The notes under the pieces: model-generated | The model's input: the letters and a program-made list of their open reading frames with translations, nothing else | Told to the model about the DNA's origin: nothing | Database searches by the model: none | Program-made: the position numbers and the translations under genes | In this document: in pieces, positions 1-15,558 of the stretch | How the letters are laid out: each line of letters begins with the position of its first letter | Numbering within the stretch: the stretch's first letter is position 1 | From: Sphingobium sp. CR2-8 | Lineage (GTDB): Bacteria > Pseudomonadota > Alphaproteobacteria > Sphingomonadales > Sphingomonadaceae | Assembly (NCBI RefSeq): GCF_035818615.1 | Contig: NZ_JAYKZY010000001.1 | Span: forward strand, 226,501-290,500 | DNA length: 64,000 nucleotides | Direction: 5' to 3'

Positions 1-324
1 AAACAACACTTCGGTCATGCGCCTGCTGTCGTCATCTCGGACAGCTTTGGGCGGCCCTGGCGCATGGGCGTCGTCTGCGTCGCCTTGGGTGCAAGCGGCT
101 TGCCGGCGCTCCAGGACAAGAGGGGCGAGATCGACCGGGACGGACGGGTTCTGGAAGTGACGCAGATCGCGCTTGCCGATATGGTGGCAACGGCGGCCGG
201 ACTGGCGATGGGCGAAGGGTCAGAAGGCGTTCCTGCGGCCCTTGTCCGCGGCCTGCACTGGACCGAACAACCCAGGCCCGCATCCGCGATCGTCCGCCCG
301 ATGACGGAGGACCTGTTCCGATGA
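1..324 (+). CDS. cofE: Coenzyme F420:L-glutamate ligase, C-terminal part (cut by window edge)
   Basis: The frame is open from base 1 and ends at TGA 322-324. The 107 visible residues include an ISDSFGRPWR stretch, then GxxGLPALQDKRGEIDRDGR and a C-terminal VRPMTEDLFR, all typical of the C-terminal half of CofE/FbiB. That enzyme adds glutamates to F420-0 using GTP. The stop overlaps the next start (ATGA at 321-324), so it is translationally coupled to cofD. The N-terminal half lies outside the window, so a fusion to other F420 domains cannot be excluded. The family assignment is firm because cofD and cofC follow directly. Confidence 0.9.
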   Translation, partial: KQHFGHAPAVVISDSFGRPWRMGVVCVALGASGLPALQDKRGEIDRDGRVLEVTQIALADMVATAAGLAMGEGSEGVPAALVRGLHWTEQPRPASAIVRPMTEDLFR

Positions 325-1253
325 CGGACAAGATCGTCGTGCTGACCGGCGGCGTCGGCGGTGCCAAGCTGGTTCTGGGTCTGTGTCAGGTCATACCAGC
401 CGGCCAGATTACAGCAATCGTCAACACAGGGGACGATTTCGACCATCTGGGCCTGAATATATCGCCTGATATCGACACGCTTCTCTATACCTTGGCGTCG
501 AAGGCAGACCAGGAAAAAGGCTGGGGCCGGGAGGACGAAAGCTGGAACTTCATGGCGGCGTTGCGGTCACTGGGGGGTGAGGACTGGTTCCAGCTTGGCG
601 ATGGCGATCTTGCGCTTCACATCCTGCGGACAGGCCAATTGCGAGCGGGGCAGTCTTTGAGCGCGGTGACCGCCGGGTTCGCCGCGGCCTGGGGCGTCGA
701 CGTGTCCGTCCTGCCGATGAGCGATGATCCCGTCTCCACCATCGTGACGACCGATGAGGGCGATCTGGCGTTTCAGCGCTATTTTGTCGAACGTCGCTGT
801 ATACCGCAAGTCAGCGCCATCCGCTTCGAAGGCGTGCAGACGGCCAAGGCAGCGCCGGGTCTGCTGGAGGCAATCATCGATCCTGCAACCAGTGCCATCG
901 TGATCGCGCCATCCAATCCTTATCTCAGCATCGATCCGATCCTGTCTGTTCCAGGGATAAGGGACGCCCTCGAAAACAGCGTGGCGCCGGTAGTTGCGGT
1001 TTCGCCGATCATCGGCGGGAAAGCTGTCAAAGGACCGACCGTAAAGCTGATGGCCGAACTTGGCCTTCCGGTCTCGTTGGTTACGATCGCAGAACATTAT
1101 GAAGGGTTGATCGACGGTCTGTTGATCAATTCGGGCGATGACCTTGGCGTTGCCGGGATCGTGTCGGCGTCTGCTGATATAATGATGAACAGCCTGGATG
1201 ATCGGGCGCGGGTCGCGCAAGCGACGTTGGCTTTGGCGCAAGCTCTGCGGTGA
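321..1253 (+). CDS. cofD: 2-phospho-L-lactate transferase family protein (F420 biosynthesis)
   Basis: A 310-residue protein of normal CofD/FbiA length. The glycine-rich GGVGGAK motif is at residues 10-16, followed by the NTGDDFDHLGLNISPDIDT-type segment that binds the GDP-linked lactate-like donor, and a late SPIIGGKAVKGP motif. The family moves a phospho-lactyl, phosphoenolpyruvyl or phosphoglyceryl group to the deazaflavin Fo to give (dehydro-)F420-0. It sits between cofE (ATGA overlap) and cofC (TGA of cofD overlaps the GTG start of cofC). No Fo synthase (cofG/cofH or fbiC) is in the window. The donor used in this organism cannot be read from the sequence. Confidence 0.95.
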   Translation: MTDKIVVLTGGVGGAKLVLGLCQVIPAGQITAIVNTGDDFDHLGLNISPDIDTLLYTLASKADQEKGWGREDESWNFMAALRSLGGEDWFQLGDGDLALHILRTGQLRAGQSLSAVTAGFAAAWGVDVSVLPMSDDPVSTIVTTDEGDLAFQRYFVERRCIPQVSAIRFEGVQTAKAAPGLLEAIIDPATSAIVIAPSNPYLSIDPILSVPGIRDALENSVAPVVAVSPIIGGKAVKGPTVKLMAELGLPVSLVTIAEHYEGLIDGLLINSGDDLGVAGIVSASADIMMNSLDDRARVAQATLALAQALR

Positions 1254-1837
1254 CAGGCTGGACCGCGGTCATTCCGTTCAAAGGGAGCGCTGCGCGAAAG
1301 ACTCGCCTCGCAGGGCTCTTCTCTCCCAAGCAGCGCGATCGGCTGAGCTATGCCATGCTTGAGCATACGATCGCGGTTCTGGCAAGCTGCTATGCTGTGC
1401 GGGAGATCGCGGTGTTGTCAGACATGCGTCCTTCTGGATGGGACGGTCGCCTCATCAACGACAGGGGGCAGGGCCTCAATACGGAACTGGGCTCCCTTAC
1501 GAGGAGTCCGTCGATAAGGCGCTTGCTAATCATCCATGCCGACCTTCCTTTACTTAAGCCGCAGGACATTGCCGACCTGCTCGACGTTGCGGGCCAAACG
1601 TCGATGGCTATCGCCCCGGATCATATCGGCACCGGCACGAACGCAATCGCTCTGAACGATCCGACGGGATTTGCCTTTGGGTTTGGTCCCGACAGTTTCG
1701 TGTGGCACGTCGAAGCCGGACGAGGAAGGGCCGGTATCGTCAGGCGCACTGGCCTGGCGCTCGATATGGACACGCCCGATGACTATCATCAGGCCTGTCG
1801 CCACAACCCCCATATCAGTGGCTGGACGACGGATTGA
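1250..1837 (+). CDS. cofC: 2-phospho-L-lactate (or 3-phosphoglycerate) guanylyltransferase
   Basis: A 195-residue nucleotidyltransferase starting with GTG 1250, which overlaps the cofD stop. Landmarks are VIPFKGSAARKTRLAG near the N-terminus (nucleotide-binding loop), HADLPLL at residues 96-102, APDHIGTGTNAI at 122-133 and FGPDSF at 145-150, all standard for CofC/FbiD. The enzyme activates a three-carbon phospho-acid with GTP to make the donor for CofD. Known homologues use 2-phospholactate, PEP or 3-phosphoglycerate, and the sequence alone does not decide which. It is the last gene of the cofE-D-C run; the next gene is convergent. Confidence 0.92.
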   Translation: MTGWTAVIPFKGSAARKTRLAGLFSPKQRDRLSYAMLEHTIAVLASCYAVREIAVLSDMRPSGWDGRLINDRGQGLNTELGSLTRSPSIRRLLIIHADLPLLKPQDIADLLDVAGQTSMAIAPDHIGTGTNAIALNDPTGFAFGFGPDSFVWHVEAGRGRAGIVRRTGLALDMDTPDDYHQACRHNPHISGWTTD

Positions 1838-1887: not shown

Positions 1888-2901
1888 TCACGCATGTGCT
1901 AAGGTTCCTGCCTGAAAAATCCCGCTTGCCGGCTGCCGACGCCATTCGGACACTGACTGTCCGGTCCAGCGCTTGAAGGAACGGCGAAAACTGCTGTCGT
2001 CATCGAAGCCGAGCAGATTGGCGATCATCTTGCCGCGCTTCCCCTGACGCAGCAGCAGCAATGCTTTCATGTGGCGATATTCATCCAGTATTTCGTGAAA
2101 CCCGCTCCCTTCCGTAGCCAGATGACGTTGGAGGGACCGGGCGCTCATACCCAGCAGTTCGCTCGCCCGCGCAAGGTCCAACGGCCCTTCTGAACGCAGC
2201 AGCGTCCCAAGGCGGCTGGCCAGCGATCCGCTCGCGCCGTCCCAGGCTTGGCGGCACAGTTCATCGCAAATCTTCAGAAGATTGGCGTCCGCCGTTGGAT
2301 TTTGCCGTTCAAGATCCCGGCGGTCGCCTTCCACGAAAGGCACGGCGCAGTTGAACAACAGTTCGTCGGCTTCCAGTTGCGCATAGGCTTCCATCCGGTC
2401 GGGCTTGGGACTGGTAAAGCCGATCCGTCGCAGCCGGAGCCTATGCCCGCTAAGGTTGAACACCGATTGCGTAAAGCCGGCCAAGGTTGATGTGACGCAG
2501 AAATTTTCCGCTTCTGGCATCAGCGGATAACGAGGGGCAAAGGTCATCCGCCACGCGTCTTGCGATGTTTCCAGCGCGGCGCTCAACGGATAGCCTATCT
2601 GGCCGCAAAACTCGGCCCAGTCCGACAGAAGATCCCCGATCGTGGCACAATTGCTTAGGCGATATCCTAGAAGTCCCAGATATTGCAGCTTGATCTGCTG
2701 CCCGCAGGAAATGGCGAAATCGTCCGGAGCAATCGCGGCAACGATGCCATATATGCCCGACATCATGTTGTGCGACACAGGACGCTGCGCCAATATTGCC
2801 TCAAAACTGAGGCCAAAATCCTTAAGGCAGGCGTCAGGATCAAAACCCAGTTCGGCAAGACTGAGGAGATCGCCTCGCAACTTGGTGGGCGCGACCATCA
2901 T
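1888..2901 (-). CDS. AraC-type transcriptional regulator
   Basis: A 337-residue protein. I place the start at the first of two ATGs ending at 2901 because GGAGAGG lies just upstream; an open frame continues to 3030 without a better site. The N-terminal ~190 residues match the ligand-binding AraC_N/arabinose-binding type (PF12625-like). The C-terminal part has both helix-turn-helix motifs: LARASELLGMSARSLQRHL and IANLLGFDDDSSFRRSFKRWTG. It is divergent from the TonB receptor at 3069 across a 167-bp gap and probably controls it and the cupin downstream. The ligand is unknown. It is convergent with cofC, so a link to F420 genes is positional only. Confidence 0.88.
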   Translation of the reverse strand: MMVAPTKLRGDLLSLAELGFDPDACLKDFGLSFEAILAQRPVSHNMMSGIYGIVAAIAPDDFAISCGQQIKLQYLGLLGYRLSNCATIGDLLSDWAEFCGQIGYPLSAALETSQDAWRMTFAPRYPLMPEAENFCVTSTLAGFTQSVFNLSGHRLRLRRIGFTSPKPDRMEAYAQLEADELLFNCAVPFVEGDRRDLERQNPTADANLLKICDELCRQAWDGASGSLASRLGTLLRSEGPLDLARASELLGMSARSLQRHLATEGSGFHEILDEYRHMKALLLLRQGKRGKMIANLLGFDDDSSFRRSFKRWTGQSVSEWRRQPASGIFQAGTLAHA

Positions 2902-3068
2902 CGCTGTTTCCTCTCCTGCACTGGCGCGCACCCTTTGGCACTTGGCGCACTGTTTTTGGCGTCTCGAGCCGCACTTGTAAAGTTGCTGCGCGCCGCACCC
3001 AAGTGGCATTGTAAGGATCATAAAGGCCAAAGTCTATCGGCTGTCGACAACACTAGGGGAGAGATACG
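2902..3068. promoter_or_regulatory. Divergent promoter region, AraC regulator / TonB receptor
   Basis: This 167-bp gap separates the two divergent starts. Several TTGGC(A/G)-type repeats (TTTGGCACTTGGCGCACT near 2935-2955 and GTGGCATTG near 3003) could be AraC half-sites, but I cannot define a consensus. A GGGGAGA ribosome site precedes the TTG start at 3069. Confidence 0.4.
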
Positions 3069-5279
3069 TTGAAGCAAATCTGGGGGGTGAGCCTGATCGC
3101 GCTGGGTATAGTGCCGGCGATGGCGCAGGAAGGATCGGCGGTGGCGCCGCAACAATCATCGTCCGTCGATGACATCGTCGTCACCGCTACCAAGGCCGGC
3201 CAAAGGCTCGATCGCGCCCCCGTCGCTGCCATTTCGGTCGATGCCGCCGACCTCGCGCGACTGAACGTTCAGAGCGTGCGCGATGCCCAAGTTCTTCTGC
3301 CGTCGGTAGTGTACAATGACAGCGGCGGTTCAGCGCAGGTCTATATTCGCGGCATCGGTTCCAACTCGGCCTATGCGGGCCTTGAATCGAGCATCGGCAC
3401 CTATGTTGACGGCGTGTATCTTCAGCGACAGGTGGGCGCATCCGTCGATGTCGTGGATCTCAAGAGTATCGAAGTCCTGAACGGACCGCAGGGGTCGCTT
3501 TACGGCCGTAATGCGACCGGCGGAGTCGTGTTGGTCAACACCAATGATCCGGCTCAGCGCTTCGAGGGCAAGGTTGCAGCCGAAGCTGGCAATTTCGGCC
3601 GACTTGGTGGCGAGGCCATACTAAACATGCCGCTTAGCGATGATCTGGCGTTTCGGGTGGCCGGAAAATATACGCAGCTATCGGGCTATACCCGCAACGT
3701 CGCCAACGGCGAACGGTTGAGCGGGTTCAAATCGGGCACGGTGCGGGCGAAATTCAAATGGACGCCCGGCAGCCGCCTGACCGCAATCGCGTCGGTCGAA
3801 TATCATAACGAAATCAACGACCCGCTGGCACGTCGCACCCTGGTGAACGCGCCGCTGTGCCTGTCGTGCGCCATCTATGGTACGACTCCGCCGACAGATT
3901 TCTACAAGGTGGATCAGACGAAAACGCGCAAGACGGACATCAACTATATCGCCGGCACCCTGAGCCTCAAATATGAAGGTGATGGTTTCGATGTCATCAG
4001 CGTGACGGGGATCAGGCACTTCAACTACGCGATCTTCGTGGATCAGGACTTCGCACGGGCCGACCTCTATAATAGCCGGGCTGAGGAATATGGCACCACC
4101 CTGACGCAGGATGCCTATGTGCGAACACATTTCGACAGCCCGTTCAACTTCATCGCGGGCCTTAGCGGAGAGCTTGACAAGGACAGCCTGCTGATCCGGG
4201 TATTTGGCGATGCCTTTGGACCGTTGCAGGATGCAGGCGGCACGAGTCGCGTGAAACTGGTGTCCATCTCTCCTTATGCCGAAGCCTATATCAAACTGTC
4301 GGAATCGCTCAAGCTGACGGTGGGCGGCCGCTACAATATCGACACCAAGAAATTGCGGGCCATCAACAATCCTGGCAGCGTGATCGCTTTTGGCGCGGTG
4401 CCACGGGTAGATCAGCAGATTACGTTTCGCAATTTCACGCCCCGCATCGTCATCTCGCGCGAAACTGCCACGAGTACGGTCTATGCGAGCTATGGCAAGG
4501 GCGCCAAGAGTGGCGGCTATAACAGTCCCGCCTTCACGCCGCTCGATGCGTTGCGCCCGGAATCGCTCACCAGCTATGAACTTGGCCTCAAGGCCAATGG
4601 TCTCCAGGGGCGGCTCAATATGTCGGTCGCGGGCTTCTATTATGACTATAAGGATATTCAGGTCAGCTATGTGAATGCCTCGACCGGCGGGATCGGGGCG
4701 CAGAATGCCGCCAGCGCACGCATCTACGGGCTAGAACTCAATACATCCTTGCGGTTGACTCAGAGACTGTCCGTGCATGCCGGCGGACTGATCGAACGGG
4801 CGCGCTTCCGCAATTATACCGGGGCCGTCATCTATTGCCCCGCATCTGCGCCATCGCCCACCTATTCCGGTTGCCCCGCGCCCAGCGGTCGTCCGGGGCT
4901 GGTCAGCGGGGTGGCCGATCTGTCCGGCACCCGCATACCGCGCGCGCCAGAGTTGTCCTTCTCGATGGGGGCGAACTATCAATTCCCGATCACCGATGAA
5001 TGGGCGGGCAATTTTACCGTCAACGACCGCTATACAAGTGCTTATGATCTGCTGCCGGGCGCAGGTGGTCCGCTGGGCCTCAGCCACCAGAAGGCCTATC
5101 ATTTCGTCACTCTGGGCTTGGCATTCGAAAATGAGCAGGCGGGGCTGGAGGCGCGCCTCTTCGTCAACAATCTGACGCGCGCGCGCTATTATCTCGACCT
5201 GCCGACATCCGCCTTTGGCGTCGCAGGATCAGCGGGATCGCCACGGACTTTCGGCGGCTCCCTGGCCTATCGTTTCTAA
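3069..5279 (+). CDS. TonB-dependent outer-membrane receptor
   Basis: A 736-residue receptor starting with TTG 3069 behind GGGGAGA. A signal peptide ends about residue 19 (VPAMAQ). The TonB box region DDIVVTATKAGQRL and the plug follow (residues ~35-150, including SLYGRNATGGVVLVNT), then a 22-strand-type barrel ending in a terminal aromatic (AYRF). The architecture matches the sphingomonad FyuA/CirA-like receptors that often sit in aromatic or terpenoid catabolic islands. The cupin gene starts 15 bp downstream, so the two are likely co-transcribed under the divergent AraC regulator. The substrate is not readable; it could be the growth substrate of the island or cobalamin/siderophore. Confidence 0.92.
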   Translation: MKQIWGVSLIALGIVPAMAQEGSAVAPQQSSSVDDIVVTATKAGQRLDRAPVAAISVDAADLARLNVQSVRDAQVLLPSVVYNDSGGSAQVYIRGIGSNSAYAGLESSIGTYVDGVYLQRQVGASVDVVDLKSIEVLNGPQGSLYGRNATGGVVLVNTNDPAQRFEGKVAAEAGNFGRLGGEAILNMPLSDDLAFRVAGKYTQLSGYTRNVANGERLSGFKSGTVRAKFKWTPGSRLTAIASVEYHNEINDPLARRTLVNAPLCLSCAIYGTTPPTDFYKVDQTKTRKTDINYIAGTLSLKYEGDGFDVISVTGIRHFNYAIFVDQDFARADLYNSRAEEYGTTLTQDAYVRTHFDSPFNFIAGLSGELDKDSLLIRVFGDAFGPLQDAGGTSRVKLVSISPYAEAYIKLSESLKLTVGGRYNIDTKKLRAINNPGSVIAFGAVPRVDQQITFRNFTPRIVISRETATSTVYASYGKGAKSGGYNSPAFTPLDALRPESLTSYELGLKANGLQGRLNMSVAGFYYDYKDIQVSYVNASTGGIGAQNAASARIYGLELNTSLRLTQRLSVHAGGLIERARFRNYTGAVIYCPASAPSPTYSGCPAPSGRPGLVSGVADLSGTRIPRAPELSFSMGANYQFPITDEWAGNFTVNDRYTSAYDLLPGAGGPLGLSHQKAYHFVTLGLAFENEQAGLEARLFVNNLTRARYYLDLPTSAFGVAGSAGSPRTFGGSLAYRF

Positions 5280-5783: not shown

Positions 5784-5826
5784 ACCCGCTGTCCGGTCGC
5801 GCCGCACGGACTATCCCGTCAATTAA

Positions 5827-5862
5827 ACCCGCCGGGACGCGTGGCACAGCGTTCCGGCGGGT
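5827..5862. terminator. Bidirectional hairpin between convergent genes
   Basis: Two 14-nt arms (5827-5840 and 5849-5862) pair at 13 of 14 positions around an 8-nt loop, built on ACCCGCCGG / CCGGCGGGT. It lies between the cupin stop and the stop of the convergent SDR gene. There is no clear T-run on the plus side. Confidence 0.75.
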
Positions 5863-5879
5863 CGGCAAATCGACCATGT

Positions 5880-6770
5880 TCAGGCTGGGTCAGTCGATTG
5901 CGACATGACGCGGCTCCCCGGAAGCAACTGATTGAACAGCGTATCTATCTCCATATCCGTCGACACCCGCCGACGTTCCAGTAGATCGACTGCGTTACCC
6001 ACAGGATAGCGGGCAGCCGGAACATCTGCTTCCAACGCCTGGATGATGGTTTCTGCCACCGCATCCGGCGCGATTGCAAGGGCATGGGCATTCTGCGAAA
6101 ACGCCTTCTGCTGGGCGTAATAGTGACCGTAGTTGCGTTTGCCCTGATCATCGAGCTGGTCAAATCCACGATCGAGCTGGGCTGCAAAGCCATGCACCAT
6201 GCCCGTTGCGATCGCACCGGGTTGGATCAGCGAAACGGGGATGCCCCATTGGCCCGCCTCAAGCCGCATGGTGTCGGCCAGCCCTTCCAGAGCATATTTT
6301 GAGGCCGTGTAATAGCCAAGCAACGGGAACGCGACCTTGCCCGACATCGAGCCTACAAAGATAAAGCGCCCTTTGCTTTCCCTGATCTGCCCGAGAGTGG
6401 CCTGATAGACTGCGAGATTGGAGACGGTGTTGATCTCGACCGTGCGGCGAAACATCTCGATCGGCGTTGTCTCCAATGGCCCGGACGGATTCACGCCTAC
6501 GCAGCTTATGACCGCCGTGAGCGGTCGGTCGCTGCGGCGAAGTGCGTCTTTGAGTTGAGATATGCCGACATCCGCGGAAGAAAAATCGGCCACGAACAAA
6601 TCTGCCGCACCAAAGTCTTTACTCCTCATCGCTTCAAGGTCGGTGTCGTCTAGGGCTGAACCCAGCACGGTATAGCCAGCGTCCAGCAATTGTCGTGTCA
6701 GGCACTGGCCAACGCCGCCCGACGCGCCCAGAACGAGAATGGTGCCTGTCTGCAACGATTTTTCTGACAT
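5880..6770 (-). CDS. Short-chain dehydrogenase/reductase
   Basis: A 296-residue classical-type SDR. The nucleotide-binding GASGGVGQ motif is at residues ~15-22 and the catalytic YTASK (Tyr-x3-Lys) around 155-159, with a Ser in the FVGSMSGK strand before it. It would oxidise or reduce an alcohol/ketone with NAD(P). It is transcribed away from the Rieske operon, across a 605-bp gap that contains an 18-bp palindrome-like element also found upstream of the second TonB receptor. It likely belongs to the same catabolic set; the substrate is unknown. Confidence 0.88.
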   Translation of the reverse strand: MSEKSLQTGTILVLGASGGVGQCLTRQLLDAGYTVLGSALDDTDLEAMRSKDFGAADLFVADFSSADVGISQLKDALRRSDRPLTAVISCVGVNPSGPLETTPIEMFRRTVEINTVSNLAVYQATLGQIRESKGRFIFVGSMSGKVAFPLLGYYTASKYALEGLADTMRLEAGQWGIPVSLIQPGAIATGMVHGFAAQLDRGFDQLDDQGKRNYGHYYAQQKAFSQNAHALAIAPDAVAETIIQALEADVPAARYPVGNAVDLLERRRVSTDMEIDTLFNQLLPGSRVMSQSTDPA

Positions 6771-7375
6771 TGTTTTTCCTCTTCCTGAAGCCCGGGCAGC
6801 GGGGCATTAGATTTGTTGCGATCGCTGTCGCCTCGTGACATCGAAAACACGCGCCGCAACTTCCGTCGCCTGAACAGGCTGACCATAGCACATCTGATAG
6901 ATCTGTAGATACTATATACTACATCTTTCATTGTGTGAAGTGAAAGGGCATTGACGCCAGCAGGCCGCATTTTTTTTGGAGAAAGCAGGCGTGCTGCCCG
7001 GCTCTTGTGCTCAAAAAATCTGCCGAGGAAGCACGGGCAGGCGGTGCGTCGTACATTATGATAAGTCGTCGGCTCAGAGTGCTCGGTGGCAATAACAGGC
7101 TGCGCAGAATATGGCGCTGGTATAAATGGAGGAGCGAGGCAGGCTGGCTGCGCGCGCGGCTCGGATGGCCCACCCGCCGAGCAATCATTTTATGTTAGGC
7201 ATGGCTTGAAGATGGAGGCAAAGTGGCACCTGGAAGATCGGCAGTCTCGCAAATCGGGCTGGGTGAAGGTCGGTCAGGGCATTGATGATGAAGCTGCAAG
7301 CCATGAAAACGGATTGCGTTGCAGCGAAGGACGTATTAGGTCCTACATACTGTTTTTATAAATGATGAGGATGCC
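6771..7375. other. 605-bp divergent intergenic region, SDR / Rieske operon
   Basis: I see no convincing gene here; the few short open frames lack family features. The region holds an AT-rich patch around 6895-6930 with a palindrome-like element (separate entry), and GTATTAGGTCCTACATAC at 7333-7350, which contains the short palindrome TAGG-T-CCTA just upstream of the Rieske gene. I looked for a cobalamin-riboswitch B12 box and did not find one. Confidence 0.6.
6905..6922. promoter_or_regulatory. Candidate operator shared with 14401-14418
   Basis: GTAGATACTATATACTAC: GTAG/CTAC ends form an inverted repeat over 18 bp. It aligns without gaps to the 18-bp site at 14401 (both have TAG at positions 2-4 and ATACTA at 12-17). 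It lies in the divergent gap between the SDR gene and the Rieske operon. No regulator can be assigned. Confidence 0.4.
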
Positions 7376-8776
7376 ATGGATTACGACTTCCAGAGGGGTT
7401 TCGTCACCTACCCTGACGCCGAGCCTGGCAGTCCCGGCGAGAAGGCTCCCTATATCGATCATGGCACCGCCCGCGTCGATCCCAAGCGCTTCTACAGTAA
7501 AGATGAAGCAGACCTTGAATGGGACAGGATGTGGACGAAGAGTTGGCTCTTCGTCGGCATCAGCCATGATATCGCAGAGGTAGGAGACTGGTTCAAGGCC
7601 GATTATGGCAACGAGTCCTTCATCATTGTTCGGAATGCGGAAGGCGATGACGGCATCTCGGCCTATTTCAATGTCTGCCCGCACCGTGGCAACCGCATCG
7701 TTCATGACGACTTCGGCAGCGTTGGAAGCGATGCGAACGAGGGGGCATGCATCTTCACCTGCGATTTTCACGGTTGGAAATTCGGCCTGGACGGCAAGAA
7801 TGTCGAAATTCGCGATGAGATGATCTTCCGAAAGGAAGCGATCGCCCATCGGCCAGGCCTCAAGGCGGTTCGCTGCAGCGTCTGGAACAGTCTGGTCTTT
7901 ATCAACATGGATCCGAATGCCAAGCCGCTCCTGGAGCAGTTGGACGTCATCCCGCGCCACCTCGCGCCTTATCCGTTCGATAAATACAAGGTCATTCGCG
8001 ATATAGAAACCTGCTGGAATGCGAACTGGAAGGTCGCGCTCGACGCGTTCATTGAATTCTACCACGCGGACGACGTGCACCCGCAACTGGCGAGCTTTAC
8101 GGAGACGCTGGGATGCCAGTATGATCTCTATGGCAACGGAAACAGCCGTATGGTCATCCCGATCGGCAGTGTGCCGGTGCGGTTCGAGGATCGGGCGACT
8201 GTCCCTGAAGGCATGAAGGCTTTCCTTCAGTTCTACGGCGGCAATCCCGATGATTTCACACATTTGGAAGGCCATGAATATAACAAGGCTTTTGCCCAGA
8301 CACGACGTACGTGGGCTAAGCGGCACGGCCACGATCATTTCGATGATCTGACCGATGATCAGATCAACGATGACTGGAATTATTTCATATTCCCCAACGT
8401 GACGATCAACGTGTTCAGCGACGCCTTACTGATCCAGATTTTCCGTCCGCACGAAACCGAACCGCGCAAAAGCTACTATCGCGCTATTTCTCTCTGCCTG
8501 CCGGTGGGCGGCTCGCAGGATATGGTCATGGACCCGGGACAGTTTGGCCCGGAAGCCGTGTCGCCGCCCGGCTGGGACGGGTCGATCCGACCTGAAAAGA
8601 TCGTACCCCAAACGCCAGAGGAATTTGGCTCCGTCCTCGCGCAAGACGCCGTGCGCGTTCCGGAGGTGCAGAAAGGCATCGAGTCGGTGGCATTCGACGG
8701 CTATGTCCTGTCGGAATCGGAAAATCGCATACGGCATTATCTGGCAGAGCTCGATCGTCTGATTGGCAGAGGCTGA
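7376..8776 (+). CDS. Rieske non-heme iron oxygenase, alpha subunit
   Basis: A 466-residue ring-hydroxylating-type oxygenase. The Rieske [2Fe-2S] ligands are C101-x-H103 (CPHRGN) and C129-x2-H132 (CDFHGW). The catalytic domain carries the mononuclear iron ligands H230 and H235 in EFYHADDVH. The residue three before the first His, which normally bridges to the neighbouring Rieske centre, is Glu227 rather than the usual Asp; Glu there is known from carnitine-type oxygenases. No beta subunit gene is present. The ferredoxin is three genes downstream, with the B12 mutase genes inserted between. It starts the operon (9-bp gap to the mutase). A start at ATG 7376 is preceded by GATGAGGATGCC. The substrate is unknown. 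Confidence 0.92.
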   Translation: MDYDFQRGFVTYPDAEPGSPGEKAPYIDHGTARVDPKRFYSKDEADLEWDRMWTKSWLFVGISHDIAEVGDWFKADYGNESFIIVRNAEGDDGISAYFNVCPHRGNRIVHDDFGSVGSDANEGACIFTCDFHGWKFGLDGKNVEIRDEMIFRKEAIAHRPGLKAVRCSVWNSLVFINMDPNAKPLLEQLDVIPRHLAPYPFDKYKVIRDIETCWNANWKVALDAFIEFYHADDVHPQLASFTETLGCQYDLYGNGNSRMVIPIGSVPVRFEDRATVPEGMKAFLQFYGGNPDDFTHLEGHEYNKAFAQTRRTWAKRHGHDHFDDLTDDQINDDWNYFIFPNVTINVFSDALLIQIFRPHETEPRKSYYRAISLCLPVGGSQDMVMDPGQFGPEAVSPPGWDGSIRPEKIVPQTPEEFGSVLAQDAVRVPEVQKGIESVAFDGYVLSESENRIRHYLAELDRLIGRG

Positions 8777-8785
8777 GCGCGCCAG

Positions 8786-10432
8786 ATGAGCGAAAACGCA
8801 AACCTCTTCGAGAGCGTCGAAAACGTCGAGATCAAGCTGTCCCGGACCAAGACCTGGAGCGGGCTGGAAACCGAACCTGCCTATTTCCCCAAAGAACGGG
8901 ATGAGGCCTATACGAAGAATCTGGGTGATCCCGGCAGCTTCCCCTTCACCCGGGGCGCATATCCGCAAATGTACCGCAGCCGCATGTGGACGTTGCGCAA
9001 TATCGTCGGTTACGGTTCGCCGGAAGACACCAGGCAGGGCCTCGAAATGGTGCTGGCGTCGGGCGGAACCGGCGTCAGTATCGTGCCAGATCCGCTGACG
9101 ACCCAGAGCGTGGATGCAGATCACCCTGCTTTCGCGCCGGAAGTGGGGCTGGAGGGCTGTTCGCTCCCAACGTTGCGCGATGCCGAAAGGCTTCTGGACG
9201 GCGTCGATCTCGCAAAAGTGGATACCGCCTGGCACTGGGGTGCAATGGCTTATCCGCTCATCGCATCAGTCCATGCAAAGCGCGGGCAGCCGCTCTCCAC
9301 CCTGCAAGGCTCCAATATGCCGGATATGTTGCAGCAAACGCTGTGCGGTTGGGGTAAGCATCTCGTGCCCGCCGAATTCGGGCATCGCATCGCTGTGGAT
9401 GAGATTGAGTTCAGCGTTCGTAACAGCCCGAAATGGGCGCTGGGCATGCCGCAGGCCTATGATCTACGCGAGCGCGGTCTTTCACCGGCGGGAGAAATAG
9501 CGCTGGGCATGGCCATGATCAACAAGACGATGGAAGATCTGATCGAGCGCGGCCTGACCGTGGATCAGGTTGCGCCCAGCCTGGCGTGGGTCTCGACATC
9601 CGACATCGACTTTTTTGAGGAGGTTGCGAAGTTTCGTGCGCTGCGCCGCTATTGGGCGCGGACAATGAAAGAACGTTTCGGATCGCAGGATGTGCGCGCC
9701 CAGCGGCTTCGCATCGCCTGCCACACGTCGGGCAAATCACTGGTCTACAAGCAGCCGTTGAACAACCTTACCCGTACCGCTATTCAAGGGCTGGCGGCGT
9801 TGTGCGGCGGGGTTCAATCGCTCGAGGCCTGCACATTCGACGAACCGGTATGCGTGCCAACGCACGAGGCAAGGGAACTTGCCACGCGACAGCAGCAAAT
9901 TCTGGCCAACGAAGTCGGCGCGGCCCGCGTGGCCGACCCGTTTGGCGGCAGCTATTATGTCGAAGCGCTCACCGATCAAGTAGAGGCGGAGGCGATTGCC
10001 ATGCTGACGCGGATCGAAAAAGTCGGCCTTATCGAAGCGATCGCCAGCGGCCAGATCGAGCAGATGATGGACGATTTCAATTTCGAATTGCAGCGTGAAA
10101 TGGACAGCGGCGAGCGTATCATGGTTGGCGTCAACCGGTTTGTGCCGGAAGACGAGCCGTCACCCACGCGGTTCAAGTTCGACCGCACGAATACCTATGC
10201 CCACATCCGTCGTTTTTCAGAACTCAAGCAGCAGCGCGATCAGGGCCTATGGTCTACTGCGTTGAACAAAGTGCACACTGTCGTTCGCGACGGCAATAAT
10301 CCGATGCAGGCCATGATCGACGCGTTCATTGCCGACGCCAGCATTGGTGAGATATGGGGAACCGTTCGCGTGGCCTATGGTCATCCTTTCGACCCTTATG
10401 GTCACCTTCAAGCACCGTTGAGTTACACATGA
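8786..10432 (+). CDS. Methylmalonyl-CoA mutase-like large subunit, strongly divergent
   Basis: A 548-residue TIM-barrel subunit of the adenosylcobalamin-dependent acyl-CoA mutase family, about the length of the separate large subunits (HcmA/IcmA type). Family landmarks are RGAYPQMYRSRMWTLR (57-71), FFEEVAKFRALRRYW (276-290), HTSGKSL (313-319), NNLTRTAIQGLAA (326-338) and DPFGGSYYVE. By my alignment from memory, several functional positions differ from methylmalonyl-CoA mutase: Ile73 at the Tyr89 position, Val100 where hydroxyisobutyryl-CoA mutase has Asp117, Met178 at Gln197, Gly188 at Arg207, and Asp226 at the catalytic His244. It may isomerise a different acyl-CoA or have altered chemistry. 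It overlaps the small subunit by ATGA (10429-10432). Confidence 0.88.
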   Translation: MSENANLFESVENVEIKLSRTKTWSGLETEPAYFPKERDEAYTKNLGDPGSFPFTRGAYPQMYRSRMWTLRNIVGYGSPEDTRQGLEMVLASGGTGVSIVPDPLTTQSVDADHPAFAPEVGLEGCSLPTLRDAERLLDGVDLAKVDTAWHWGAMAYPLIASVHAKRGQPLSTLQGSNMPDMLQQTLCGWGKHLVPAEFGHRIAVDEIEFSVRNSPKWALGMPQAYDLRERGLSPAGEIALGMAMINKTMEDLIERGLTVDQVAPSLAWVSTSDIDFFEEVAKFRALRRYWARTMKERFGSQDVRAQRLRIACHTSGKSLVYKQPLNNLTRTAIQGLAALCGGVQSLEACTFDEPVCVPTHEARELATRQQQILANEVGAARVADPFGGSYYVEALTDQVEAEAIAMLTRIEKVGLIEAIASGQIEQMMDDFNFELQREMDSGERIMVGVNRFVPEDEPSPTRFKFDRTNTYAHIRRFSELKQQRDQGLWSTALNKVHTVVRDGNNPMQAMIDAFIADASIGEIWGTVRVAYGHPFDPYGHLQAPLSYT

Positions 10433-10839
10433 ACAAGCCGAACACAGTCCGCTGCATGCTTGGGATGTTGGGCACGGATGTCCATTCCAAGGGCATACGC
10501 ACACTGGCGCGCCTGCTGAACGAAGCAGGCGGCATAGAGGTCGATTATATCGGCGAGCATAATAGCGTGGAGGGAATGGCGGCGGCCGTTGCGGAGCGGA
10601 AGTCCGATGTCGTGGGCATCAGTTTTTCGTCTGCGGCCTATGTCGAATATACGCGTCAGTTGATCGAGGCGATGAAGGCGAAAGGGGTAGGGCACGTCCC
10701 CGTAATTCTGGGCGGAATCATCCATCCGGATGACGTCGAAGAACTCAAGGAGATGGGTGTGGCGGGCGTGTTTGGCGCAGGGTCTAAGACGCAGGACATC
10801 ATTCTTTTTGTACAGAATGCAGGTGTGTCAAGTCTATGA
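10429..10839 (+). CDS. Cobalamin-binding small subunit of the mutase
   Basis: A 136-residue B12-binding Rossmann-like domain. D17-V-H19-S-K-G22 is the DxHxxG motif whose His coordinates cobalt. GISFSS (about residues 64-69) and VILGGIIHPDDVEEL complete the SxL/GG signature around the nucleotide tail. I take ATG 10429, which overlaps the large-subunit stop; the frame is open further upstream but lies inside the large-subunit gene. The split into large and small polypeptides resembles hydroxyisobutyryl-CoA and isobutyryl-CoA mutases. Its stop overlaps the ferredoxin start (ATGA at 10836-10839). The intact cobalt-binding motif argues that the mutase is functional despite its altered large subunit. 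Confidence 0.93.
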   Translation: MNKPNTVRCMLGMLGTDVHSKGIRTLARLLNEAGGIEVDYIGEHNSVEGMAAAVAERKSDVVGISFSSAAYVEYTRQLIEAMKAKGVGHVPVILGGIIHPDDVEELKEMGVAGVFGAGSKTQDIILFVQNAGVSSL

Positions 10840-11186
10840 AGGATTATGTCGATGTCTGCGCGGTTGATGACATTCCCAACGGCAAACATCGCGCCTTTCT
10901 GATCGACGGCACCTCTATACTGGTATTCCGCATCAACGCGGACGCTTACGCGTTGGAGAATCGCTGCACCCATCTTGACTTTCCTCTGGAGGGGGGGCGA
11001 CAGATCGGCACGACAATCGTCTGCCGGAAGCATGGCGCGCGTTTCGATATATGCTCTGGCAAAGTCGTTACCGGACCGGCCGTCGATCCGCTGCGGTGTT
11101 TTTCCACGCGGGTGCGCCAAGGACGCATTGAAGTTCAGCCCGGCGCGACCAGAAACCTAGGCCCGTTCATTGCTCAGGACATCTGA
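10836..11186 (+). CDS. Rieske-type ferredoxin
   Basis: A 116-residue Rieske ferredoxin with ligands C44-T-H46 and C63-x2-H66 (CTH and CRKH), typical of bacterial dioxygenase electron carriers. It would pass electrons from a reductase to the oxygenase encoded at 7376. It is translationally coupled to the B12 small subunit, so oxygenase, mutase and ferredoxin form one operon. No ferredoxin reductase is found in the window, so a shared reductase elsewhere is likely. Confidence 0.92.
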   Translation: MKDYVDVCAVDDIPNGKHRAFLIDGTSILVFRINADAYALENRCTHLDFPLEGGRQIGTTIVCRKHGARFDICSGKVVTGPAVDPLRCFSTRVRQGRIEVQPGATRNLGPFIAQDI

Positions 11187-11914: not shown

Positions 11915-14359
11915 TTAGAATCTGAACGTTCCCTGCAGGGTGACTTCGCGAGGCCGCGCCACAGCGCCAACGATCTGGCCGGGAGGCGCCAGCGGTTGAT
12001 CGATCGCGTTGCTGATATAATAGTTGTTCGTAAGATTCTGGGCAATCAACGCCAATTCCCACTTATCATCCGCATCATGCAAACGAACGCTGGTGTTCAA
12101 CAGGGCAAAGCCATTCTGCCGACCAACGGGGTTGAGTGTTTCGCTTGCGTTATAGTTGCTTGTATAGCGAACATCACCTGTAAAACCGATCCTCACCGTG
12201 TTGGTCAGGCCTGTATCATAGGTGAACCCGCCGCTCAGATTGACCTTCGGCGCGCGCGCCAGGCGGCGATCGGTCAGACTTTGGGTAGATGCCGTGCCCA
12301 CCGGCACACAACCTTGTGCCACAGTCTGACCAGCATAACATGGCGCATCGGGGAAACTCTGAAACTTCGCCTCATTATAGGCGGCCGATCCGTGGAGCTG
12401 CAAATCTGCATCGACCTGATAGATCGCCTCGAGTTCGACGCCGGTCGTCCGTGCCGATGCGGCATTGCGGATCTGGTTCGACACCGTGGGTGCATCGAAC
12501 GTCTGAACCTGAAGATTGTCGAATGTGTAGCGATAGGCCGCCGCCGTCAGCCGCAGCTTGCGATTGAAGAATTCGCCTTTGGCCCCAATCTCGAACCCCT
12601 TCACCTTTTCCGGCGCAAAGCGAATGGTGTTCTCAGTAAAGGACGGCACGACCAAGTTGGCCTGCGCATAGCCGCCGGACTTGAAGCCAGTCTTATAGGC
12701 CGCATAAAGCGTCGTATTGCCGTTGGGATGCCATGTCAGCGTCGCCTCTGGCGAGATGTTATCGTCGCTGGACTTGCCGGCTATCAGGTCGCCTTGCGCG
12801 CGAGAGAAGCCGAAGGCCCCAAACGCGGCCTGAACATAGTCGTTGCCGCCGATGGTCTTGTACGATTGATAGGTGTACCGCGCGCCGCCTGCCAGTTGTA
12901 GATTGTCCAGGATGTCGAACGTAACCTGACCAAAGCCGGAATAGGTTTTGGAACTGCTGTCCCAACCGCCGCTAAAATTATCAAACCGTCCGGTTGCTGG
13001 ATCAAGGCCAAGCGAAACAAGGCTGACATTCTGGTTGAACGGAAAGCTTTCGCTTTCGAAAAAGCCGCCTGCCATGAGGTTTATCGGCCCGTCGAAGCTT
13101 GTTTGAATGCGCAGCTCCTGAGCGAAGTCGCGGCTGGCAGAGGCATTATACGCCCAGAAGTTGCCCTGCGACCCGAACTGCACATTGTCGAAGAACTTGT
13201 TCTTGAACTTATAGAAGCTGGTGACTGACGTGATGCTGAAGCTGTCGCCCTCATAGCTTGCGTTGAGCGACGCCAGTACGGCCCAGAAATCATTATAGGG
13301 ATTGCCATCACGCGCATTAGGGAAGGCTGCGGCGCGCTGTGGATTGAACGAAGCTGTCTGACGTCGACCGTCCACCTTGCAGTCGCCGGACGCGTCGATC
13401 AGGGGAGAACCCGTAGCGAAATCAAACGCTACAGGTTTGCCCAGCGGATTGGCGCATTTGATCTCGGTCGTAGAATTCGTCCCGGTGCGATCCTTGGAAT
13501 CCGTCGCAAAAACCTTGAGCACGGCGCGAAATTCGTCCGTTGGCGCCCAGTCTAGCGTCACGCGTCCCAGATATTCGCGTTGCCCAGGGGAGCGCGAATA
13601 GGGAACCGGCGCGTGGGGGAAGAGCGGATCGGTCGGAAGGGTGAAGACCTGCCCGCCTACTCTCATCCAGCCATCCATCTTGCTGGCGCGACCGGCAACC
13701 CTGAAGCCCAGCGTATCGGAAATCGGCCCGGAAATAGCACCTTCCACATAGCGCTGATTTGCCTTGAATTCGTAGCCGGCTCTCACAAAGCCCTTCAGTT
13801 CCTTCGTTGCGCCTGCACTGGAGACCGAAATCACGCCGGCCGGGCTGTTCTTGCCGAAGAACAGCGCCTGTGGCCCCTTCAGCACCTCGACTTGCTCCAG
13901 ATCGAAGAAGCCAGCCGTAATGATGCGGCCGCGGCTTATCTGCGTACCGTCAATATTCACGCTGACGGTCGAGGCAAGACCTGTATCCTGTGATGACGAA
14001 CCGATGCCGCGGATGGTCAGAACGGCGCCCGACCCGCCGCCGCCAGTGGACTGGATCGTCACCTGCGGCACCATTTCTGCGAGCCGTGTGAAGTTCGTAG
14101 TGTTATATTTTGCAATGTCCGCTGCACCCAGCGCAGACACCGCTACGGGGACGTCGATCAAGGATTCCGTTTTCTTGCGTGCAGTGACGACAATGTCCTG
14201 AAGACCGCCCATCGAGCGCGCATCCGATTGTGCTGATTCCTGGGCGGGAGCTGTTGAACCCTCGATCTGAGCCAGCGCAGGGCTGGTGTACATTCCTATG
14301 ATTAACGCGCCCAAGCTCGCCGAGCAAAGGGCTGCCCTAGGTTTGCAAAATGCCGACAC
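11915..14359 (-). CDS. TonB-dependent outer-membrane receptor
   Basis: An 814-residue receptor starting with GTG (14357-14359) after a GGGAGAGA ribosome site. The signal peptide ends near YTSPALAQ (residue ~31). The plug begins with GLQDIVVTARKKTESLIDVPVAVS, a very common sphingomonad form, and includes EQVEVLKGPQALFFGKNSPAGVISV. The barrel ends with TLQGTFRF. It is divergent from the LLM oxidoreductase. An 18-bp inverted repeat at 14401-14418, 42 bp upstream of the start, probably overlaps its promoter. As the second receptor of the island it may import substrate or corrinoid; neither is proved. Confidence 0.93.
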   Translation of the reverse strand: MSAFCKPRAALCSASLGALIIGMYTSPALAQIEGSTAPAQESAQSDARSMGGLQDIVVTARKKTESLIDVPVAVSALGAADIAKYNTTNFTRLAEMVPQVTIQSTGGGGSGAVLTIRGIGSSSQDTGLASTVSVNIDGTQISRGRIITAGFFDLEQVEVLKGPQALFFGKNSPAGVISVSSAGATKELKGFVRAGYEFKANQRYVEGAISGPISDTLGFRVAGRASKMDGWMRVGGQVFTLPTDPLFPHAPVPYSRSPGQREYLGRVTLDWAPTDEFRAVLKVFATDSKDRTGTNSTTEIKCANPLGKPVAFDFATGSPLIDASGDCKVDGRRQTASFNPQRAAAFPNARDGNPYNDFWAVLASLNASYEGDSFSITSVTSFYKFKNKFFDNVQFGSQGNFWAYNASASRDFAQELRIQTSFDGPINLMAGGFFESESFPFNQNVSLVSLGLDPATGRFDNFSGGWDSSSKTYSGFGQVTFDILDNLQLAGGARYTYQSYKTIGGNDYVQAAFGAFGFSRAQGDLIAGKSSDDNISPEATLTWHPNGNTTLYAAYKTGFKSGGYAQANLVVPSFTENTIRFAPEKVKGFEIGAKGEFFNRKLRLTAAAYRYTFDNLQVQTFDAPTVSNQIRNAASARTTGVELEAIYQVDADLQLHGSAAYNEAKFQSFPDAPCYAGQTVAQGCVPVGTASTQSLTDRRLARAPKVNLSGGFTYDTGLTNTVRIGFTGDVRYTSNYNASETLNPVGRQNGFALLNTSVRLHDADDKWELALIAQNLTNNYYISNAIDQPLAPPGQIVGAVARPREVTLQGTFRF

Positions 14360-14607: not shown

Positions 14608-15558
14608 TTGGCGGATCGGGACAGTCGGAATCGTGGACGTCGGATTTTGAGGATAGGCCTGTCCCTCCCCAATAATTGGGGTATCGCCGATGTCGGCGAA
14701 TTGATCGAGATTGGCATCCTTGCCGATACGCGCGGATTTCATGCGCTTTGGACGTCGGAACACCTGACTAATGTCAGCTATGTGCGTGATCGTATTGGTG
14801 ATGCGCCCTATTACAGCGCCTTGTCGATCCTGTCAGCCCTGGCGGTCAGAACAACCCGGGTCCAGCTTGGCACATCGGTTCTGGTCCTGCCTTTTCATAG
14901 CCCCTTCTTTGTCGCCAAATATTTCGCGACCTTGGATCATCTTTCAAAAGGGCGCGCCATTCTGGGCGCTGGTATCGGCAATGTACCCGAAGAATTCGCT
15001 GCGGTCGGAATTGCGTGGAAGGAGCGAGGGGCGCTGACGGACGAGGCCATCGACATCATCCAGGCCCTTTGGTCGACCGGGTCGGCGACACATGCAGGAC
15101 GGAATTGGATGTTCGAGGATGTTCATACGTCGCCCAAACCGTTTGGAGCCATGATCCCGATATGGATCGGTGGCATCAGTGCGGCCGCCTTGCGCCGGAC
15201 GGCTCGGGTCGGACGCGGATGGCAGGCGGTTGCTGTGACGCCCGACGAATTTCAGTCGATGAAAGGAGAGATTGTCGCCCAGGCGATCGCCATCGGCCGC
15301 GATCCTCAGGAAATAGCCGCCAGTATGCGAATTAACATCACCTTCGAAGGAGAGGGAATGACCGAAGGCGAATTGAAAGCGGCGATCGATGTGGATCGCG
15401 TCGACACCTTGCGGCAGGTGGTTGACATCTACCGATCCGCTGGCGCGACCGATATGATCTTTGCGTTGAATTGCCGACGCCCGGACGCAGTAAAGGCGGC
15501 GATTGCGAAAATCGCCGATGCGCTCGCACATCTGCTTTATGAAGGAGCAATTTCATGA
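14608..15558 (+). CDS. LLM-class, probably F420-dependent, oxidoreductase
   Basis: A 316-residue luciferase-like TIM-barrel protein of the TIGR03619-like F420-dependent group. Landmarks are ILRIGLSLPN at the first strand, ALWTSEHL, RVQLGTSVLVLPFHSP, LSKGRAILGAGIGNVPEEF, and PKPFGAMIPIWIGG. The frame opens at TTG 14608, but another TTG in the ILRIG region (about 14647) could be the true start; neither has a strong ribosome site. Its last codon overlaps the SRPBCC start (ATGA at 15555-15558). The cof genes at the left edge make F420 use plausible. The substrate is unknown. Confidence 0.85.
   Translation: MADRDSRNRGRRILRIGLSLPNNWGIADVGELIEIGILADTRGFHALWTSEHLTNVSYVRDRIGDAPYYSALSILSALAVRTTRVQLGTSVLVLPFHSPFFVAKYFATLDHLSKGRAILGAGIGNVPEEFAAVGIAWKERGALTDEAIDIIQALWSTGSATHAGRNWMFEDVHTSPKPFGAMIPIWIGGISAAALRRTARVGRGWQAVAVTPDEFQSMKGEIVAQAIAIGRDPQEIAASMRINITFEGEGMTEGELKAAIDVDRVDTLRQVVDIYRSAGATDMIFALNCRRPDAVKAAIAKIADALAHLLYEGAIS

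Follow-up and report, generated by a model that had tools for sequence, protein, structure and literature searches.

A sphingomonad Rieske oxygenase operon encoding a putative B12-dependent acyl-CoA mutase of a distinct clade with replaced active-site residues

Introduction

Hydroxylation of tert-butanol by a Rieske oxygenase, en route to 2-hydroxyisobutyrate, is known from Methylibium and Aquincola; the 2-hydroxyisobutyrate is then CoA-activated and rearranged by a split B12 mutase, HcmAB (PMC7176365, PMC2847961 and PMC4517660). The interconversion of pivalyl-CoA and isovaleryl-CoA, treated in PMC10481361, provides a chemical precedent for freeing a quaternary carbon. Here we analyze an operon from Sphingobium sp. 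CR2-8 that lies within a stretch of 64,000 nucleotides, hereafter the window, and that combines genes for a Rieske oxygenase and a split B12 mutase. A sequence-only reading of this DNA knew of no pathway with such an arrangement, but the logic of oxygenation, CoA activation and B12 rearrangement is already that of tert-butanol/2-hydroxyisobutyrate degradation; the exact four-gene order was found in sphingomonad loci only, among the loci compared. To our knowledge, the aerobic bacterial breakdown of quaternary-carbon skeletons (gem-dimethyl terpenoids, steroids) is only partly understood.

Results

Operon architecture

The operon consists of four genes:

7376..8776, + strand: Rieske oxygenase (RO) alpha subunit, 466 aa (Pfam PF00355 and PF00848, Rieske and Ring_hydroxyl_A; motifs)
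8786..10432, + strand: B12-dependent acyl-CoA mutase large subunit (mutL), 548 aa, of a distinct clade with an altered active site (PF01642, TIGR00641, tree, residue counts)
10429..10839, + strand: B12-binding mutase small subunit (mutS), 136 aa (PF02310, TIGR00640)
10836..11186, + strand: Rieske-type [2Fe-2S] ferredoxin, 116 aa, HcaC/AndAb-like (PF00355; NCBIfam matches below cut-off)

The coordinates bear out the uninterrupted run described earlier, with junctions of +9, -4 and -4 bp and both overlaps formed by ATGA. The mutS start at 10429, which creates the first overlap, recurs in the relatives; the open reading frame list instead begins mutS at an upstream ATG, 10354 (161 aa). A search for the same gene order elsewhere, as the sequence-only reading had proposed, recovered it together with both -4 overlaps at three of the 14 other full-length mutase loci (L003, from Sphingobium sp. 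15-1, L004 and L005), all of them sphingomonad, with gaps between RO and the mutase of 16, 147 and 74 bp. In comparisons with L003 and L005, dN/dS was 0.04-0.08 for RO, mutL and mutS and 0.17-0.18 for the ferredoxin, at dS values (1.5-2.1) that are close to saturation. Judged from these ratios, RO, mutase and ferredoxin are under purifying selection. Since the three loci repeat both order and overlaps, and dN/dS is low, the arrangement is not a product of chance.

Mutase family, clade and active site

By sequence, the two subunits are assigned to the AdoCbl-dependent acyl-CoA mutase superfamily, as both pass curated cut-offs: mutL matches PF01642 with 432 bits and TIGR00641 with 389.4 bits (cut-off 303.8), and mutS matches TIGR00640 with 83.0 bits (cut-off 57.45). 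The closest solved structure to mutL is that of 2-hydroxyisobutyryl-CoA mutase (HCM, 4r3u), and modeling of mutL predicted the fold, and returned the nearest structures, of ordinary acyl-CoA mutases. The base-off motif DxHxxG is present in mutS as TDVHSKG and in all 15 clade small subunits aligned; four residues before it, Met (15/15 clade members) replaces the Lys found in all seven references aligned.

In a tree of 66 sequences, 15 formed a distinct clade with a support of 1.0 and a stem of 1.02 substitutions per site. We take Q197 and H244 (methylmalonyl-CoA mutase, MCM, numbering), Q330 and small-subunit K604 to hold the migrating thioester carbonyl or to line the site in known mutases. 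The Q197 equivalent is Met in every clade member and Gln in all 51 other proteins, whose subtype labels are inferred, while at the H244 position the clade has Asp (12 members) or Asn (three) and all 51 others have His; among the 120 nearest homologues listed, the two positions are Met and Asp. Neither residue is a curated defining feature, yet every non-clade protein compared keeps both. Q330, kept in 49 of the 51 non-clade proteins, is replaced in the window mutase, as is the K604 equivalent. With all four replaced, an ordinary carbonyl shift cannot be taken for granted. Overall, ten columns are invariant across the 15 clade members and deviate in no fewer than 48 of the 51 others, one of the ten being a gap in the latter, and many of these columns fall in segments that carry MCM active-site residues.

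Other positions bear on the substrate. Arg66 (15/15 clade members, 40/51 others) and Arg284 (15/15 and 51/51), presumably CoA-binding residues, are kept, which fits a CoA-thioester substrate. MCM Tyr89 and Arg207, which we take to serve the substrate's free carboxylate, correspond in 15/15 clade members to Ile or Met and to Gly (or Trp, depending on gap placement), respectively. The equivalent of Ile90, which we regard as an HCM position, is kept as I73 (Ile in 112 of the 120 homologues listed), and that of Asp117, presumed to read the substrate hydroxyl in HCM, is V100 (Val in 116 of those 120). Judged from these alignments, the new element is the mutase, a clade in which residues invariant in all 51 other proteins are replaced, and its active site is the most unusual feature of the operon. 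As the cofactor motif is kept while otherwise universal residues are replaced, the clade could show which parts of the mechanism are essential.

Oxygenase and ferredoxin

RO is identified by Pfam and motifs as a Rieske non-haem iron oxygenase alpha subunit. Its Rieske motif (CxH..CxxH) and its H-x4-H iron-site motif (YHADDVH) are intact, as is the Rieske motif CxH..CxxH of the ferredoxin. Three residues ahead of the first iron-site His stands a Glu, at what we take to be the site of the bridging Asp in NDO. A PDB sequence search returned carnitine monooxygenase (79 bits) and phthalate 3,4-dioxygenase (73 bits) as the nearest solved relatives, and no NCBIfam equivalog scored above its cut-off (best GbcA, 102 bits versus 670); these searches and those of the literature yielded no named substrate.

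Distribution and gene neighborhoods

RO (79-100% identity) was found in three of 298 family genomes, representing three genera, and the mutase (E<=1e-150) in the same three, the window's own genome included; across the phylum sample the mutase clade occurred in one of 398 genomes, namely the window's own. An indirect comparison, by the length of the longest contig, of the 120 mutase and 119 RO homologues listed gave 11 shared lengths, one of which was that of the already known L017 plasmid, compared with 0-1 in ten shifted controls. From organism titles, we take the clade loci to span Alpha-, Beta- and Gammaproteobacteria and Actinomycetota. These comparisons support the view that RO and the mutase form a conserved pair.

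At more distant loci, the mutase is accompanied by a member of this RO family, by a P450, by a CoA ligase or by MeaB. Specifically, Hydrocarboniphaga L010 carries RO, CoA ligase, mutL, mutS and meaB (gaps 15, 1, -1, -4); L015 carries ligase, mutL, mutS, meaB and ferredoxin (-4, -1, -4, 0); and L006 carries mutL, mutS, ligase, SDR, LLM and P450 (-1, 8, 6, 3, 46). Two unrelated oxygenase types thus accompany the same mutase, P450 in L006 and RO elsewhere; L012 has both P450 and a distant RO. The expectation that a CoA ligase and a mutase chaperone would lie near homologues was borne out: a ligase is in the mutase operon of L006, L010, L012 and L015, and MeaB is on the stretch of seven of the 14 other loci. 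No ligase was seen in the 21 kb examined of L003 or L014; in the window's own genome, about 38 kb separate the ligase from RO, and MeaB gave only a sub-threshold match (20 bits versus 23.1).

The catabolic island

The operon closes a large catabolic island, the start of which lies some 35 kb upstream of the window. Of the island genes compared, the majority are conserved in an Erythrobacteraceae MAG. Around the operon in G093, which is the MAG of L005, genes encode a ligase, acyl-CoA dehydrogenases, MaoC, a CitE-type protein, a CoA transferase, a crotonase, an HMG-CoA-synthase-like protein, a thiolase and a split 2-oxoacid dehydrogenase. Further genes in the window are:

321..1837, + strand: cofD and cofC, for F420 biosynthesis (both above cut-off, in TIGR01819 and TIGR03552)
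1888..3030, - strand: AraC-type regulator, possibly regulating the island (PF12833, PF12625)
3069..5279, + strand: TonB-dependent receptor, candidate for substrate uptake (PF00593, PF07715)
5880..6770, - strand: SDR oxidoreductase upstream of the operon, candidate pathway link (PF00106)
11915..14359, - strand: second TonB-receptor-like open reading frame, 814 aa, downstream of the operon (ORF and tblastn)
14608..15558, + strand: F420-dependent LLM-class oxidoreductase (TIGR03619, 199.8 bits, cut-off 166.9)

In tblastn, the open reading frame at 11915..14359 and the receptor at 3069 matched common regions of L015 and L016. Upstream of the window are cofGH and a gene for an F420 reductase; cofGH and npdG score above cut-off in L019. 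The island core is also found elsewhere without this mutase: Sphingobium 'Tom' strains carry it, and the stretch examined there (L041) lacks the mutase. From names and isolation text we would guess that these are the tomatine-degrading isolates of PMC10653915, whose passages on the isolates do not mention this cluster.

Proposed function and alternatives

The sequence-only reading had suggested that an oxygenase product is activated and then rearranged by B12 chemistry; the co-occurrence of RO and mutase in the same three of 298 genomes and the linkage to ligase and MeaB speak for this part, whereas the supposed novelty of the logic did not hold. Building on what is observed (the order and conservation of the genes, their linkage to genes for ligase, MeaB and beta-oxidation, and the mutase clade with its replaced residues), we propose, with confidence evenly balanced between acceptance and doubt, that the operon is a methyl functionalization and carbonyl shift module of an island for the breakdown of a bulky alicyclic compound resembling a terpenoid or steroid. 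RO, with electrons from its own ferredoxin, would oxidize a methyl group attached to a sterically hindered carbon, finally to a carboxylate. A CoA ligase from elsewhere in the island (inside the operon in several relatives) would form the acyl-CoA, and the AdoCbl mutase would shift the CoA-carbonyl from the hindered carbon to a neighbor, allowing the beta-oxidation enzymes of the island to act. We infer the group oxidized, the step order, the class of substrate and the occurrence of a 1,2-shift. The replaced site residues, the distance of the ligase from RO and the lack of a visible ligase in the stretches of L003 and L014 weigh against the proposal. Such a module would offer a concrete, testable answer for quaternary-carbon skeletons and would add a new branch to the radical B12 enzymes.

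A bolder form of this proposal is possible, although we hold it only tentatively: the clade may be the first B12 radical mutase class in which a new His/His/Asp/Trp set has taken the place of the carbonyl-binding machinery. Its substrate would be a polycyclic terpenoid or steroid bound to CoA, and bacteria would dispose of quaternary carbons bearing gem-dimethyl or angular methyl groups in three stages: oxygenation, activation with CoA and a radical shift of the skeleton. The active-site difference hints at an undescribed breakdown of highly branched carbon skeletons. Searches of CC-licensed PMC papers gave no support for resin acids or abscisic acid as substrates.

Oxygenase and mutase may instead serve separate steps and merely be co-expressed, RO acting early on a ring or side chain and the mutase late, after ring cleavage, on a short branched acyl-CoA such as a 2,2-dimethyl-diacid. 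The many other island enzymes are compatible with this, among them MaoC and CitE-type lyases, the sort used for short branched diacids. In addition, and counting against our main proposal as well, G201 (L086) has a diverged RO (47%) with a ferredoxin, a 31% ligase and E1/E2 without a mutase of this clade, and no oxygenase was seen in the 6.5-14 kb examined of each of three of the 14 loci (L007, L008 and L013). Against it, oxygenase, ligase and mutase are close neighbors in the distant L006 and L010, and ligase and mutase overlap in L015; this recurring closeness favors consecutive steps, and we consider separate steps somewhat improbable.

Less likely still is another radical reaction (ring contraction or expansion, a non-thioester shift, or an elimination) on a CoA-bound polycyclic substrate, by way of the new His150, His313 and Asp/Asn226. 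The ten clade-fixed columns, the Asp or Asn at the H244 position and the long clade stem would fit such chemistry, but the predicted ordinary fold and nearest structures, the CoA ligase that travels with the mutase and the retained putative CoA-binding residues argue against it.

We regard a tertiary-alcohol route through a 2-hydroxyisobutyryl-CoA mutase, of the kind used in MTBE/TBA degradation, as very unlikely. HCM is the best solved relative, Ile is retained at the position of Ile90, and the known pathway also draws on a Rieske oxygenase (PMC2847961). However, Asp117 has become Val, the Gln and His of three HcmA-type references have become Met and Asp, and homology to Methylibium is distant: RO is 24% identical over 39% of the query, mutL is 38% identical to HcmA, and the ligase matches HCL over only 30 residues. 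A large island would moreover be superfluous for 2-hydroxyisobutyrate, and we rejected this function on the replaced residues and the distant homology. A methylmalonyl-CoA mutase handling propionyl-CoA from the pathway would belong to the same superfamily, but this function was likewise rejected as highly improbable, because the genome has a separate 784-aa PF01642 protein (781 bits, at C2:1731917) and the Tyr89 and Arg207 equivalents are replaced. Finally, IS66 copies 22 kb downstream and gene content that differs from locus to locus might suggest chance neighbors in a mobile region without any functional link, an idea rendered barely credible by the -4 overlaps conserved in four loci, the joint occurrence of RO and mutase, and purifying selection.

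Comparison with known systems

No published account of the cluster or of the mutase clade was found in the titles and abstract beginnings listed by searches of CC-licensed PMC papers. Carnitine monooxygenase CntA and its relatives resemble RO as its nearest solved relatives, and CntA presumably likewise has Glu as bridging residue; the match amounts to only 79 bits over about 210 residues. Methylmalonyl- and ethylmalonyl-CoA mutases share fold and cofactor with the window mutase, but in MCM the B12 domain is fused, whereas the window mutase is split. IcmF resembles it in the proposed AdoCbl 1,2 rearrangement; IcmF is, however, fused to a G protein and shares 23-24% identity in the fold match, and the three IcmF-sized proteins compared (L075-L077, identified by length) keep Gln197, His244 and Gln330. 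In Marinobacter L026 and Diaphorobacter L030, the uncharacterized order crotonase, mutase, B12 protein, CoA transferase also places a split mutase next to a crotonase, and the tree as drawn puts these mutases next to the new clade. They keep Gln197 and His244, and their loci have a CoA transferase instead of a ligase and no Rieske oxygenase annotated in the stretches read.

The MTBE/TBA system differs in gene arrangement and in sequence. In Methylibium L018, with gene names assigned in part from PMC4517660, the mutase operon lacks the Rieske gene, which is found some 10 kb away. At the window's locus we found no HCM-type operon with an HCL-type ligase, and the low identity of RO to the Methylibium protein taken as MdpJ does not indicate orthology; mutS is 29% identical to its counterpart. 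The two systems nevertheless share, according to the papers cited above, an earlier Rieske oxygenase, a CoA ligase, a split AdoCbl mutase and a MeaB-type G-protein chaperone, components that recur in the operon and its relatives.

Organization and conservation of the operon

The sequence-only reading had described a Rieske oxygenase (RO), the large (mutL) and small (mutS) subunits of a B12 mutase and a Rieske ferredoxin as one run of four genes. This description holds, with junctions of +9, -4 and -4:

7376-8776: Rieske oxygenase, first gene of the operon
8786-10432: mutase large subunit, second gene
10429-10839: mutase small subunit, third gene
10836-11186: Rieske ferredoxin, fourth gene

The cofactor motifs of the encoded proteins are intact, and dN/dS is 0.04-0.18 against two relatives (L003 and L005), at dS near saturation. 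No ferredoxin reductase was found among the proteins scanned with Pfam at 321-11186. Just 3' of the operon lies a gene for an FMN-dependent NtaA/DmoA-type monooxygenase (16462-17802; TIGR03860 above cut-off), a 65% relative of which ends a mutase-bearing Parafrankia contig (L013).

Six peptide patterns, run once against the genome collection, retrieved 14 loci, 13 of them full-length and one a fragment (L016) that was excluded. With a Paraburkholderia plasmid, PPGU19_p3 (L017), added, the comparison set comprises 14 full-length loci besides the window, two of which (L006 and L007) belong to a single MAG. These loci were collected via the mutase, and the counts are therefore biased towards it. 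The mutL and mutS genes are adjacent in all 14, with mutS preceding mutL in three actinobacterial loci (L011-L013). When the same four-gene order was sought elsewhere it was recovered in part: RO-mutL-mutS-ferredoxin with both -4 overlaps recurs in three of the 14 (L003-L005), and the other loci differ, for example RO-ligase-mutL-mutS-meaB (L010) and mutL-mutS-ligase-SDR-LLM-P450 (L006). More distant ferredoxins are present at L009 (31%) and L015 (39%).

In 8/14 loci (L003, L004, L005, L009, L010, L014, L015 and L017) the stretch examined includes an RO from this family (54-81% identity). Three more carry other oxygenases, namely a P450 (L006), a distant RO (30%; L011), and a distant RO (27%) together with a P450 (L012); the stretches examined at L007, L008 and L013 hold no oxygenase. 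The expected neighbors were likewise found only in part, an AMP-forming CoA ligase in ten loci (only 28-31% similar in two) and the mutase chaperone MeaB in seven, with no MeaB on the stretches examined at the window, L003, L004 (only 5.6 kb) and L005. The window's whole genome encodes two PF01642 mutases and an adenosyltransferase, and a search of it returned no MeaB above the Pfam cut-off; mutase maturation may differ in this group.

As a two-sided check of co-occurrence, 298 family genomes were searched for each gene; mutL (E<=1e-150) turned up in three and RO (E<=1e-100) in six. The genomes with an RO at 79-100% are exactly the three with mutL, and belong to three genera; by our own arithmetic, an independent draw would produce this coincidence about once in four million. 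The remaining three have RO relatives at 41-47% and no mutL, and one of them (G201, locus L086) has a ferredoxin (42%), a ligase (31%) and E1/E2 genes beside the RO relative. Among 398 genomes sampled phylum-wide, either gene was found only in the window's own genome at the thresholds used. Between 120 listed mutase and 119 listed RO homologues, the length of the longest contig agreed in 11 cases (one being the L017 plasmid); each of ten shifted controls produced 0 or 1 such agreement.

A mutase clade with a replaced active site

By both sequence and fold search, the closest solved structure to mutL is 2-hydroxyisobutyryl-CoA mutase (HCM; 4r3u); mutL is 38% identical to the HCM-type Methylibium protein, and its predicted model has a pLDDT of 84.8. 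The alignment set 15 members of the clade against 51 PF01642 proteins from outside it: eight references, one of them the second, 784-aa mutase of this genome, and a non-random sample of 43 further sequences (29 top-scoring loci and 14 hand-picked for lower-scoring types). The positions Gln197, Arg207, Tyr243, His244 and Gln330 are given in methylmalonyl-CoA mutase numbering.

The equivalent of Gln197 is Met in 15/15 clade members and Gln in 51/51 others; that of His244 is Asp (12) or Asn (3) in the clade and His in 51/51 others; and that of Gln330 is His in 15/15, with Gln (49) or Val (2) in the others. Among the 51 others, position 207 is Arg in 41 and Gln in 10; the clade has Gly there (15/15), with a one-residue insertion directly after it (Trp 12, Gly 2, Tyr 1); an alternative alignment sets the clade Trp opposite Arg207. 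Altogether, ten alignment positions are invariant within the clade and differ in at least 48 of the 51 others, one of the ten being a gap in the others. Met178, Gly188, Trp189, Asp226 and His313 are invariant in the best 120 of 2930 homologues (8000 candidates scored), beyond which Trp189 (inserted Trp/Gly/Tyr) and Asp226 (Asp/Asn) vary. In mutS, DxHxxG is retained, and the Lys found four positions N-terminal to its Asp in 7/7 references is Met in 15/15 clade members.

In a FastTree phylogeny of 66 sequences the 15 members form one clade (support 1.0, stem 1.02 substitutions per site), which, in the tree as drawn with support values unprinted at these nodes, adjoins an uncharacterised split-mutase type of Marinobacter and Diaphorobacter, with the HCM group next. 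This neighboring type (L026 7195-11217; L030 3195-7145), encoded with a crotonase, a B12 protein and a CoA transferase, has Ala at the Tyr243 position and Val at the Gln330 position.

Genomic setting

The window covers bases 226501-290500 of a 918,701-bp contig (C1) in a 4.5-Mb genome of three contigs. A catabolic island closes with the operon at its downstream end. Island genes can be recognised as far as ~35 kb upstream of the window; the 40 kb further upstream (L038, L040) gave no island-gene matches apart from one TonB-type hit. Two upstream loci of the same contig, L020 and L019, carry relatives of PPGU19_p3 genes, and F420 biosynthesis genes sit between these and the mutase operon:

L020, L019: AMP-forming CoA ligase, LLM enzyme, FAD_binding_2 flavoprotein, SDRs
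L020, L019: SRPBCC and NTF2 proteins
L020, L019: acyl-CoA dehydrogenases, CoA transferase, crotonase, HMG-CoA-synthase-like enzyme
L020, L019: 2-oxoacid dehydrogenase type (E1alpha/E1beta, lipoyl protein, E2)
L019 16179-19523 and window 1-1837: F420 block in the order cofGH fusion, F420 reductase, 252-aa ORF, cofD, cofC

The cofGH and F420 reductase genes are upstream of the window, and cofD and cofC form its left end; F420 biosynthesis genes are embedded in a sphingomonad catabolic island, with F420-class LLM enzymes close by. The island further includes a CitE-type lyase, MaoC proteins and a PRK06157 thiolase (above cut-off). The flavoprotein resembles flavocytochrome c and 3-ketosteroid-dehydrogenase models, scoring below both cut-offs; on the Paraburkholderia plasmid its annotation is split into two genes (L017 10167-11575), and the L020 counterpart is a single 445-aa ORF.

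An Erythrobacteraceae MAG (G093, the source of L005) carries the RO, mutase, ferredoxin, ligase, beta-oxidation, HMG-CoA-synthase-like, thiolase and E1/E2 genes within ~37 kb, and also has a second RO copy (51-52%), as read from L039 and L089. The island core is found without the clade mutase on two plasmids, one from Sphingobium sp. TomTYG64 (L041) and one from Diaphorobacter (stretch L042), so the module of oxygenase and mutase appears to have been added for a particular substrate. At 110 kb from L042, the Diaphorobacter plasmid bears another type of mutase (L030).

Elsewhere in the window, two IS66-type elements stand in direct tandem (33626-38691; 2533-bp copies, 100% identical), and 40536-48727 encodes, consecutively, a sulfatase, a GH106 alpha-L-rhamnosidase and a TonB receptor.

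Proposed pathway and precedents

Since oxygenase, ligase and mutase are linked in distant loci, with either an RO or a P450 as the oxygenase, action in consecutive steps fits. The oxygenase would convert a methyl group to an acid, the ligase would form the CoA ester, and the mutase would shift the CoA-carbonyl. Given the active-site replacements seen in the alignment, the radical reaction may differ from a plain carbonyl shift. From gene content we infer a bulky alicyclic, terpenoid- or steroid-like substrate: the island's two TonB-type receptors, flavoprotein and SRPBCC proteins, and the relatives' OYE (L005, L017, L039) and DUF1302/DUF1329/MMPL genes (L017). Given the GH106 gene at 40536-48727, aglycones of glycosides may feed into the island: the saponin-hydrolase candidates of Sphingobium RC1 include a GH106 enzyme in an excerpt of PMC10653915.

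Precedents are available for such a sequence of steps. Excerpts of the literature on the MTBE/TBA route (PMC7176365, PMC2847961, PMC4517660) describe an oxygenase, CoA activation and a mutase, and IcmF interconverts pivalyl-CoA and isovaleryl-CoA according to part of PMC10481361. Isobutylene degradation, in the portion of its description available to us, leads as in the MTBE/TBA route to a 2-hydroxyisobutyrate mutase step, by way of a di-iron oxygenase.
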